From a virus, in IMG/VR virus record IMGVR_UViG_3300017917_001486, positions 1-32,383 of that record: DNA of 32,383 bases. One strand, given 5' to 3'. The position numbers were made by a program, and so were the translations under genes. Numbering within the stretch: position 1 is the first letter of the stretch; each line of letters starts with the position of its first letter. The notes under the pieces were generated by a model, which was not told where the DNA came from, searched no databases, and was given only the letters and a program-made list of their open reading frames with translations. Of this stretch, positions 5,212 through 10,656 are shown piece by piece.

Positions 5212-5244
5212 AAAAACCCTGAGGATAAAATCTTCAGGGTTTTT
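5212..5244. terminator. Bidirectional rho-independent terminator between convergent operons
   Basis: AAAAACCCTGAGGAT (5212-5226) pairs with ATCTTCAGGGTTTTT (5230-5244) around an AAA loop, with one G-T wobble. The A tract on one side and T tract on the other make it work on both strands. It lies between the end of the rightward late operon and the end of the leftward regulatory operon. Confidence 0.92.
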
Positions 5245-6108: not shown

Positions 6109-6564
6109 TTAATAATTTAAGTTAAATTTTTCACTGATTCTTAATAATTTTGTATCTAATTCTGACACCATTGATTCAACATCAATATCACCATTAGAAT
6201 TGTAAACAATATCAAGTTTAATAGATTTAGGTATTTGACTGTCTAATTTCCTTTCTATTACCTCAACTTCAGTATCAGTTAATTCATAAAGATTAACAGG
6301 TCTTCCGTTTTCACCTGGTATTGTTCCCAAAGATACAATAATATTTTGTTTTAACAATGTATTAATACTTCTTCCAACAGAAGATTGAAGAATTGGTTCA
6401 ATCATTTCATTGTAGGTATCATACACATCCCAAGTTGTCATACAACCAAATTTCTTGAATAGTTGATAGATTTTGTTTTCTTGGTCTTTAGCGTTAGCAA
6501 TAGCACGAGATAATGTTTCATCGTCTATTTGAGTTGTTTTGTAATAAGATTTAATTGTTGCCAT
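6109..6564 (-). CDS. Winged-helix-like transcriptional regulator
   Basis: The 151-residue product has a segment at about residues 28-95 that reads as a winged helix: helix IYQLFKKFGCMTTWDVYDTY, then SSVGRSINTLLKQNIIVSLG as the recognition helix region, then a wing with GENGRPVNLYELTD. This arrangement matches small Bacteroidota-phage regulators that control early genes. It is the first gene of the leftward operon and diverges from the replication operon. A perfect 13-base odd palindrome (6605-6617) in its own promoter is a natural candidate operator, which would make it autoregulated. The target is inferred from position only. Confidence 0.65.
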   Translation of the reverse strand: MATIKSYYKTTQIDDETLSRAIANAKDQENKIYQLFKKFGCMTTWDVYDTYNEMIEPILQSSVGRSINTLLKQNIIVSLGTIPGENGRPVNLYELTDTEVEVIERKLDSQIPKSIKLDIVYNSNGDIDVESMVSELDTKLLRISEKFNLNY

Positions 6565-6586: not shown

Positions 6587-6618
6587 TAAACATACGGAAT
6601 AAAATTGGAAATTCCAAA
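6587..6618 (-). promoter_or_regulatory. Candidate leftward promoter, Bacteroidota type
   Basis: Read leftward, TTTG (6618-6615) is followed by 20 bases and then TATGTTTA (6594-6587), close to the Bacteroidota consensus TTTG...TAnnTTTG. It lies 23 bases upstream of the regulator's ATG at 6564. Confidence 0.5.
6605..6617. promoter_or_regulatory. Candidate operator, odd palindrome
   Basis: TTGGAAATTCCAA is a perfect 6-base inverted repeat with a single central base. It fills much of the spacer of the leftward promoter and overlaps its upstream TTTG element, the expected place for a repressor site. Confidence 0.45.
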
Positions 6619-6651
6619 TATAGTAAGATTTTTTTTAAATTTTTTATTTCA

Positions 6652-6683
6652 TTTGGATTTATGGAAAAACTTTCGTATTTATT
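6652..6683 (+). promoter_or_regulatory. Candidate rightward early promoter, Bacteroidota type
   Basis: TTTG (6652-6655) is followed by 20 bases and then TATTTATT (6676-6683). The predicted transcript would start near 6688-6692, just before the pseudoknot-forming leader, leaving a 5' leader of about 100 bases before the initiator ATG at 6792. Confidence 0.5.
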
Positions 6684-6694
6684 AACATAAGTCC

Positions 6695-6777
6695 CACTTC
6701 ACATTATAGGACATTAAAGATTTTAAGGGTTGTCAAAGAAAACTGAGGTGAAGTGCAGTGAGTATTTGATGACCCTT
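6695..6777 (+). ncRNA. Candidate H-type pseudoknot in the leader of the replication initiator
   Basis: CACTTCAC (6695-6702) pairs perfectly with GTGAAGTG (6748-6755). AAGGGTTGTCAAA (6725-6737) pairs over 13 positions with TTTGATGACCCTT (6765-6777), including two G-U pairs. The two stems interleave, so together they form an H-type pseudoknot with loops of 22, 10 and 9 bases; separately they would be two alternative hairpins. The second stem ends 14 bases before the ATG at 6792, where it could block ribosome entry. No start codon opens a plausible gene in this region. Confidence 0.65.
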
Positions 6778-6791
6778 TGTTATTAAACATT

Positions 6792-7370
6792 ATGAAACAA
6801 CAAAACACAGGATTAATTATTAAATCCAAATTAACGGAAAAGTTTACTACTATCCCTAATTCGGTCTTAAACGACCCAAATTTGAGTTGGAAAGCTAAAG
6901 GGATACTATGTAAGCTATTATCAAATAAAAGTGACTGGGCGGTCTACAAATCACAATTACAACAATTCTCAACTGATGGTCGTGATAGTACAACTGCAGG
7001 TTTCAATGAATTAGTTGAGAGGGGTTATATAATTGCAGTAAGAAGACATAACGATAAAGGTCAATTTGCTGGTTATGATTATGTAGTATATGATGAACCT
7101 ATTACGGAACAACCGATTACGGAAAACCCGTTAACGGTAAACCCGTCCCTAATAAATACTAATATAATAAATACTAAAGAAATAAATACTAATACTAGTA
7201 CTATACTGGGTAAATCTAAATTTGAGTTAAAACAATTAATAATTAATAATTTAAATTTAACTACAAAGCAATTAGATTTGATGGTTAAAAATAACTTCTC
7301 AACCTATTGGAATCCAGAATTACTGGATGCAAATAAAAATATTATAGAACAATATAAAAACACAATATGA
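6792..7370 (+). CDS. Replication initiator-like protein with helix-turn-helix domain
   Basis: The ATG at 6792 is chosen over an in-frame TTG at 6777, which lies in the leader stem. The 192-residue product has an N-terminal winged-helix domain (about residues 13-90) with TTIPNSVLNDPNLSWKAKGI, LLSNKSDWAVYKSQLQ and a recognition-helix region TTAGFNELVERGYI. This is the HTH_36/RepA-N-like pattern of phage initiators. Residues 104-135 are an Ile/Asn/Thr/Pro-rich linker encoded by iteron-like DNA, and a small C-terminal helical domain follows. As in lambda O, the protein probably binds an origin within its own gene. Its stop overlaps the next start (ATGA). Confidence 0.7.
   Translation: MKQQNTGLIIKSKLTEKFTTIPNSVLNDPNLSWKAKGILCKLLSNKSDWAVYKSQLQQFSTDGRDSTTAGFNELVERGYIIAVRRHNDKGQFAGYDYVVYDEPITEQPITENPLTVNPSLINTNIINTKEINTNTSTILGKSKFELKQLIINNLNLTTKQLDLMVKNNFSTYWNPELLDANKNIIEQYKNTI
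7101..7195. other. Candidate replication origin: GC-containing iterons plus AT-rich repeats
   Basis: Three tandem 15-bp units, ATTACGGAACAACCG (7101), ATTACGGAAAACCCG (7116) and TTAACGGTAAACCCG (7131), are followed after five bases by three tandem 15-bp units each starting with the identical 12-mer AATAAATACTAA (7151, 7166, 7181). Iterons next to an AT-rich repeat array inside an initiator gene match the architecture of the lambda origin. The repeats also encode five-residue protein repeats, so selection on either level is possible. Confidence 0.6.
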
Positions 7371-7573
7371 ACAATTTAACACAAACTGGAAACTGGTACT
7401 GGAGAACTGGTGAAATATCTTTGAAGGATTATTATAATCTATCCTCAACCGAAAGGAAAGAACATATAGATTTTCTATTAACATTAAAACAATCTCAACG
7501 AAGCACAGCAGATAATATTATCCTGTTAATATCTAGAACAAAAGAACAGGATGATAAATTCTTTGAATTGTAA
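7367..7573 (+). CDS. Small hypothetical early protein
   Basis: The 68-residue product starts MNNLTQTGNWYWRTGEISLK and has a helical centre with SSTERKEHIDFLLTLKQSQR. No domain is recognised. Its start overlaps the initiator stop by four bases (ATGA), so it is translationally coupled to the replication gene and probably acts in replication or early takeover. It is the last gene before the repeat- and hairpin-rich intergenic region at 7574-7708. Confidence 0.5.
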   Translation: MNNLTQTGNWYWRTGEISLKDYYNLSSTERKEHIDFLLTLKQSQRSTADNIILLISRTKEQDDKFFEL

Positions 7574-7597: not shown

Positions 7598-7683
7598 TAA
7601 CGGTTACTCAAGTAACGGTTTGTCCCAGCACTAGGTTCGCTTCCATAACCCTACGATGCTGGGATTTTCGTTTAAAATTAAAC
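7598..7683. other. Intergenic symmetrical region: two more iteron-like repeats and hairpins
   Basis: TAACGGTT occurs at 7598 and 7613, the same 15-bp spacing and core as the iterons in the initiator gene. It is followed by a hairpin in which CCCAGCA (7624-7630) pairs with TGCTGGG (7657-7663), with an inner stem TAGGTT/AACCCTA and a 9-base loop, then ATTTTCGTTT. A further inverted repeat GTTTAA-AA-TTAAAC lies at 7670-7683. The hairpin may be a terminator; the repeats suggest an auxiliary origin or initiator-binding region. Confidence 0.5.
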
Positions 7684-10260: not shown

Positions 10261-10656
10261 ATGGCAAAGGAAAATAAGGTAAATGAGTTGGAGTACGAGG
10301 AAAGAATGAATCGTGCATTTGAAATGATGTTATATGAGAAAAAATCATATGATGAGTTTAAGAACCAATTCTCAAAAGAAATGGGTATATCTGTTAGAAT
10401 GGCAGAGAACTATTGGAAGGACGTTAGGACCCGTTTAAAGGAACGATACGCACAGAATCAAGAGGAAATACTATCTGAACAATTAAATCGTCTGTATGAC
10501 CTTTTAAATCGTTGTAGACTATCAGGTAACCGTAGAGTTGAATCAGAAGTATTAAGAGATATAACAAAGATATTAGGAATGGAAGCACCAAAGAAAGTTG
10601 ACCTAACTTCAAATGGTGAAACTATATCAATTAATATTAATATAACAGAGGACTAA
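10261..10656 (+). CDS. Terminase small subunit
   Basis: The 131-residue product has an N-terminal helix-turn-helix-like region (about residues 12-60, with MLYEKKSYDEFKNQFSKEMG and ISVRMAENYWKDVRTRLKER), then a coiled helix (QNQEEILSEQLNRLYDLLNR) and a C-terminal segment with RRVESEVLRDITKILGMEAP and a beta tail (ETISININI). This matches small terminases of Bacteroidota phages, which recognise the packaging site and assemble into a ring. The large subunit lies about 280 bases downstream with one small gene between. Confidence 0.75.
   Translation: MAKENKVNELEYEERMNRAFEMMLYEKKSYDEFKNQFSKEMGISVRMAENYWKDVRTRLKERYAQNQEEILSEQLNRLYDLLNRCRLSGNRRVESEVLRDITKILGMEAPKKVDLTSNGETISININITED

Follow-up and report, generated by a model that had tools for sequence, protein, structure and literature searches.

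In the leader of T4 gene 32, a pseudoknot precedes a phage replication gene and is bound by the protein which that gene encodes. In the rep mRNAs of pT181 and pIP501, a leader terminator stands before the replication-initiator gene, and attenuation involves loop-loop contacts with an antisense RNA acting in trans. The put RNA of phage HK022, a cis-acting RNA of two hairpins that contains a triplex and lies at the 5′ end of the early transcript, makes polymerase ignore terminators (PMC9378689). In the HMP-PP (thiS) riboswitch, the terminator hairpin lies within a larger pseudoknotted fold just before the regulated gene; the conserved sequence of the terminator loop is the binding site for a thiamin precursor, and in the ON state the terminator stem is broken up (PMC6478431).

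Here we analyse a leader in a 32-kb viral record (IMGVR_UViG_3300017917_001486; the whole stretch analysed, 32,383 nt, is called the window), whose terminase is nearest to that of Flavobacterium phage 11b (48% identity). The leader sits between a divergent gene on the minus strand (6109–6564) and an initiator-like gene on the plus strand (6792–7370), of the winged-helix, DnaD/RepA type, which matches PHROGs 4707, 428, 270 and 186 and, by tblastn, 'replication initiator A family protein'. Two hairpins are joined by a loop-loop helix, S1, and the stem of the second hairpin, S2, is followed by a U-tract.

As in the HMP-PP riboswitch, a terminator-like hairpin is thus placed within a larger pseudoknotted fold just before a gene; in the phage leader, by contrast, the loop keeps its pairing and not its sequence (ten versions), S1 leaves S2 intact, and the RNA is phage-borne and precedes replication genes. 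The likeness to put concerns layout and position only: whereas put acts against terminators, the present leader ends like a terminator and has a loop-loop helix. Unlike the pT181 and pIP501 leaders, it carries the loop partner within the same RNA. A sigma-70 scan, whose pattern does not cover flavobacterial promoters, identified no conserved antisense promoter, and the downstream gene, in which one would be sought, is not conserved among members. With T4 gene 32 the leader shares a pseudoknot before a phage replication gene, but the proteins encoded behind it are unrelated among phages. The HMP-PP riboswitch is the closest precedent for a terminator inside a larger fold, and put the closest two-hairpin phage leader.

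No Rfam 15 family was found at gathering threshold in the whole window, in 12 further loci or in the phage 11b leader, in line with the preliminary description of this DNA, which had not recognised a known riboswitch. A permissive search of positions 6600–6850 of the window returned chance matches only; over all Rfam runs these were MIR395, RUF1, RMST_7 and CAESAR. The class is likewise absent from the literature searched (open-licence PMC papers). The leader therefore appears to be an undescribed class of structured RNA among the phages of one major group of aquatic bacteria. Linked to the decision to begin replication, it is retained while unrelated initiator genes swap in, and it adds to the few RNAs whose terminator hairpin forms part of a tertiary fold.

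Fold and covariation of the leader RNA

The preliminary description had proposed an 8-bp perfect stem whose strands interleave with those of a 13-position stem containing two G-U pairs. Both were confirmed on the plus strand: S1a (CACTTCAC, 6695–6702) pairs with S1b (GTGAAGTG, 6748–6755), and the 13 bp of S2 are formed by AAGGGTTGTCAAA (6725–6737) and TTTGATGACCCTT (6765–6777), ending, as had been stated, 14 nt before the initiator ATG at 6792. Two further stems of 4 bp had been missed, P1 (GTCC, 6691–6694, with GGAC, 6709–6712) and P3 (ACTG, 6742–6745, with CAGT, 6756–6759); both are present in the plain minimum-energy fold (−22.8 kcal/mol, z −2.2) and both covary. Hairpin 1 is P1 with CACTTCAC exposed in its loop. 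Hairpin 2 comprises S2, an internal loop and P3, and its own loop consists of A-R (AG in the window) plus the eight nucleotides of S1b. S1a abuts P1 and S1b abuts P3, with no gap in either case. The internal loop, GAAA (6738–6741) opposite GAGTA (6760–6764), has a sequence suggestive of a sarcin-ricin-like AGUA/GAA motif. Between the hairpins runs the linker ATTAAAGATTTT (6713–6724), in which ACAT(T)AA is nearly invariant in both sequence types defined below (alignments A5 and A7).

Because S1 joins both hairpin loops, the RNA is an intramolecular kissing-loop pseudoknot, and its interleaved helices are all kept by compensatory change. Of the H-type pseudoknot proposed earlier, the pseudoknot stands, with strong covariation; the minimal H-type does not, since there are two complete hairpins and a loop-loop helix. 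An interleaved pair of an 8-bp and an at-least-12-bp helix is unique to this site: among 4614 scanning segments of 98 nt on both strands there were two matches, both overlapping the leader. Shuffling the leader gave a comparable pair in 2 of 3000 cases.

Leaders of the same layout were found in IMG/VR by scanning for the pattern of the 8-bp stem and then filtering for the second stem, and the set was enlarged with looser patterns and a covariance model to ∼37 distinct loci. These phage contigs fall into two sequence types, type I (window-like) and type II. In type II, the S2 sequence at the same helix is unrelated to that of type I, and the AGUA and GAAA strands of the internal loop are exchanged. 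The internal loop thus keeps its sequence with its strands swapped between types, phage 11b being as type II.

All four helices covary, which bears out the covariation that the preliminary description had proposed to look for in homologous leaders. In nine type I sequences, 30 pairs in the four helices were 100% paired and 9 had double changes; in 15 type I sequences the figures were 29 pairs, 99.5% and 10, and in 15 type II sequences 30 pairs, 98.6% and 14, with 0/500 shuffles reaching these values in each set. The S1 counts were not fitted, because S1 was unpaired in the model that aligned A6. P1 occurs in homologues as GTCC/GGAC, GTCG/CGAC and GTTC/GAAC, and P3 as ACTG/CAGT, ACAG/CTGT and GTTG/CAAC, among others. 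In the locus nearest by initiator protein (L001), S1 reads TCCTTCAC/GTGAAGGA, as against CACTTCAC/GTGAAGTG in the window. In 37/37 loci S1b complements S1a exactly, in ten S1 versions; three S1-dependent pattern searches had required part of S1, and one looser search asked for no S1 complement. Every true member returned by this looser search still had the complement, with core changes such as CCATTCAC/GTGAATGG, CCTTCAAC/GTTGAAGG and CTCATCAC/GTGATGAG. Sequence-specific recognition of S1 was rejected, since its sequence varies freely.

These data make the four-helix structure (P1, S1, S2 and P3) virtually certain. As all four helices covary, the two stems first described need not be mutually exclusive, and the suggested switching between two alternative hairpins is not supported.

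Putative promoter, U-tract and terminator-like hairpins

The preliminary description had placed a promoter-like pair ending at 6683, with the structure at the very 5′ end of the transcript, and this remains plausible. A putative flavobacterial sigma-A promoter is formed on the plus strand by TTTG (6652–6655), 20 nt and the −7 box TATTTATT (6676–6683); in F. psychrophilum, the −7 box consensus TAnnTTTG spans −12 to −5 (PMC9723704). Transcription would start at about 6688, some 3 nt before P1. A similar box, mostly TATATTTA, lies 1–8 nt upstream of the motif in homologues, with the versions TATATTTG in phage 11b and TACATTTG in P12002L and phi18:3.

A terminator-like 3′ end had been overlooked. 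Nearly all members have a U-tract directly 3′ of S2, with T fractions across members, by position after S2, of.89,.94,.89,.83,.47,.75 and.67, and then of.33,.19 and.17. In the window the tract (TTTGTTATTA, 6776–6785, plus strand) is interrupted and weaker than in most relatives. The GC pairs beside the U-tract are kept in S2 even though they read GGG/CCC in type I and CCC/GGG in type II. By these features, a GC-rich hairpin base with an adjoining U-tract, the class would qualify as an intrinsic (Rho-independent) terminator and the window as a weak one. The start codon follows S2 by 9–26 nt in IMG/VR members. With the ATG this near to S2 a separate promoter would not fit, and transcription of the first gene has to come from read-through.

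Three loci (L012, at 10479–10595, L019 and L074) have an extra hairpin 2, alone and without P1, between convergent operons. A terminator would be expected at such a site, and the arrangement supports S2 as terminator-like; in these loci the lone hairpin was apparently acquired as a terminator. The extra copy has a different loop, GTGAAGAC, as in L121.

Distribution and the genes behind the leader

Four cultured phages also carry the element, without detectable sequence identity: Flavobacterium 11b, Cellulophaga phi10:1 and phi18:3, and Polaribacter P12002L. Only two tools reached them: the type II covariance model, which detected the leaders of 11b (33632–33732) and phi10:1, and a sequence-blind descriptor, which added P12002L and phi18:3. 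This descriptor recovered 43/48 members and gave two false matches, both lacking a promoter, over 2.08 Mb of other DNA; on shuffled sequence it made none in 0.87 Mb and none in 3.86 Mb. All four phages have a TAnnTTTG-like promoter, P1, P3, S2 and a T-rich tract, 13–52 nt 5′ of a gene, and S1 reads CGGGCAGG/CCTGCCCG in 11b, GTACGAC/GTCGTAC in phi10:1, CTTCTGAC/GTCAGAAG in phi18:3 and GTCGTAG/CTACGAC in P12002L. The next gene in P12002L is an O-like initiator. In the other three a first gene comes next, and behind it lies a DnaD-like loader (phi18:3), a gene weakly matching a primosomal protein (phi10:1) or an uncharacterised gene related to the DUF6291 set (PHROG 16304; 11b, L161:33871–34509). 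The small first genes of phi10:1 and phi18:3 are homologous (PHROG 33177), and GGTAATCTTAAA(A)CC after the U-tract is common to both phages (L167 and L178).

No match was obtained in FPSV-D2, most of 6H, FCL-2 and P12024S, nor in the parts searched of FPSV-S2, laban6-1, phi12:1, elemoE, B124-14, C1_85S2P and PDS1, several of these phages having been searched in pieces. A blastn search with the leader gave nothing real in INPHARED phages or PLSDB plasmids, and a GTDB pattern scan gave seven matches, all by chance and none scored by the covariance model. In sets of 114 and 399 Flavobacteriales genomes there were two weak model matches, both without S1, so in that sample the leader is neither a host element nor a common prophage feature. 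None of the bacterial genomes searched carries it. It belongs to phages, and its occurrences here are confined to those of Flavobacteriia and to their metagenomic relatives.

The first genes behind it form at least nine sequence clusters, often mutually unrelated, and include winged-helix initiators (several PHROGs), Lin1244_N, the uncharacterised DUF6291 and MAKRF-type proteins, and other families; many of the clusters are replication-initiator PHROGs. In L121 the initiator is the second gene, behind a 63-aa ORF, L016 has a non-initiator gene behind the element, and the L002 contig ends too early for an initiator to be assigned. DUF6291 proteins (PHROG 16304/19415) fill the initiator slot in L077, L094, L099, L110 and others, including phage 11b, and may be a replication-initiator family; a DUF6291 protein search in INPHARED gave no match.

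Since the element stays at the initiator slot despite replacement by unrelated genes, control of initiator level, which the preliminary description had suggested, is likely. With unrelated proteins encoded downstream, autoregulation by the initiator itself is unlikely. An autoregulated leader of the T4 gp32 type would need a homologous downstream protein in all members, and the number of clusters speaks against one. The window and L012/L089 share flanking genes, with leader and initiator on one side of them in the window and on the other in L012/L089, and this varying orientation makes service to one long operon unlikely.

Probable mode of action and neighbouring elements

The 5′-terminal ∼90 nt of the initiator transcript very probably constitute a structured cis-acting leader RNA, and we favour the reading that it works mainly by transcription attenuation (probability about 0.6). 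Polymerase would start at +1 and hairpin 1 would fold first; the S1 kissing helix would form once the second loop emerges. Timely closure of S2 with the U-tract terminator would yield a terminated RNA of ∼90 nt, and otherwise read-through into the initiator unit would follow. In this scheme the U-tract would terminate, S1 would modulate termination, and the outcome would be an initiator dosage timed to infection.

When folding of the growing transcript was modelled, S1 was best at 62–82 nt and P1, S2 and P3 were set from 86 nt, which fits a kinetic race with the loop-loop helix formed before the terminator closes. S1 contacts the loop of the terminator and leaves the stem alone, so an antiterminator of the classical, mutually exclusive kind is not seen. 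A GACA/UGUC alternative helix seen in short-transcript folding was rejected as a conserved antiterminator, being broken in L098, L103, L110, L121, L137 and most type II members. The interrupted U-tract of the window is a counterpoint to attenuation, as are the non-initiator gene behind the element in L016 and the uncharacterised DUF6291 and MAKRF-type proteins that fill the slot in other loci.

A fold of this kind before replication genes suggests a built-in switch for starting replication. A more specific version is offered tentatively: a dedicated RNA switch for replication onset, kept by Flavobacteriia phages across initiator exchange, in which the kissing loop would form with the 3′ arm of the terminator still inside polymerase, gate its closure and answer some factor or ligand. 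Occurrence in cultured phages (11b, phi10:1, phi18:3 and P12002L) makes the function directly testable.

Termination at S2 would also be expected if the ∼90-nt RNA were itself the product, a trans-acting small RNA with the downstream gene fed by leaky read-through. A terminated RNA with a function of its own would account for the same data as attenuation: the element has its own promoter, a compact fold and a terminator-like 3′ end, contains unpaired residues that are conserved in the alignments of both types, outlasts exchange of the downstream gene, and in one locus precedes a non-initiator. We nevertheless consider it unlikely, as a free small RNA needs neither a start codon, which always follows within 9–52 nt, nor the initiator slot, which the element nearly always occupies, and as the freely varying S1 leaves no conserved base-pairing target for that loop.

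The position of the fold, from about +3 to an S2 end at −9 to −26, would also suit a post-transcriptional element of the 5′ UTR that governs how the first gene is translated or shields the mRNA 5′ end. Flavobacteria lack Shine-Dalgarno sequences, and S2 overlaps the −20 to +20 region, where structure tunes initiation in F. johnsoniae (PMC6847099). This reading seems improbable to us: it leaves unexplained the position-specific U-tract, the adjoining GC pairs kept in S2 and the stand-alone hairpin at operon ends.

An RNA that, like put, alters RNA polymerase for processive antitermination could account for two hairpins right after an early promoter, for the compact tertiary fold and for the lack of conservation in the downstream gene. 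Hairpin 2 itself bears a U-tract, however, and HK022 put is not known to have one of its own. Moreover, the transcription unit is often short and then closed by a terminator-like hairpin, and with the orientation of leader and initiator differing among phages the leader has no long operon of constant layout behind it. Together these points make a put-like role very improbable.

A DNA element without an RNA role (a single-strand origin, a protein site or an inverted-repeat cluster) is hardly credible, even with replication genes and iteron-like repeats adjoining, since the G-U pairs conserved on the plus strand (83 of 441 S2 pairs) would become A-C mismatches on the opposite strand, the motif is precisely delimited by promoter and U-tract, and P1, S1 and P3 are arranged as in a transcript.

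The iteron-like repeats lie within the initiator gene (7096–7194, plus strand), where AACCNATTACGGAA repeats are followed by AT-rich AATAAATACTAA repeats; judging from their sequence, they are a probable replication origin. The short initiator unit (the initiator and a 68-aa ORF at 7367–7573) ends in a terminator-like hairpin (7623–7664, plus strand). Its loop, GCTTCCAT or CTCCCAT, is common to terminator-like hairpins 3′ of the initiator in the window and in L094, L095, L096, L099, L103, L106 and L158. A plain terminator would need no shared loop sequence, and these hairpins are possibly a second conserved RNA element. Elsewhere in the window, positions 5212–5244 form a strong bidirectional terminator-like hairpin, AAAAACCCTGAGGAT...ATCTTCAGGGTTTTT.
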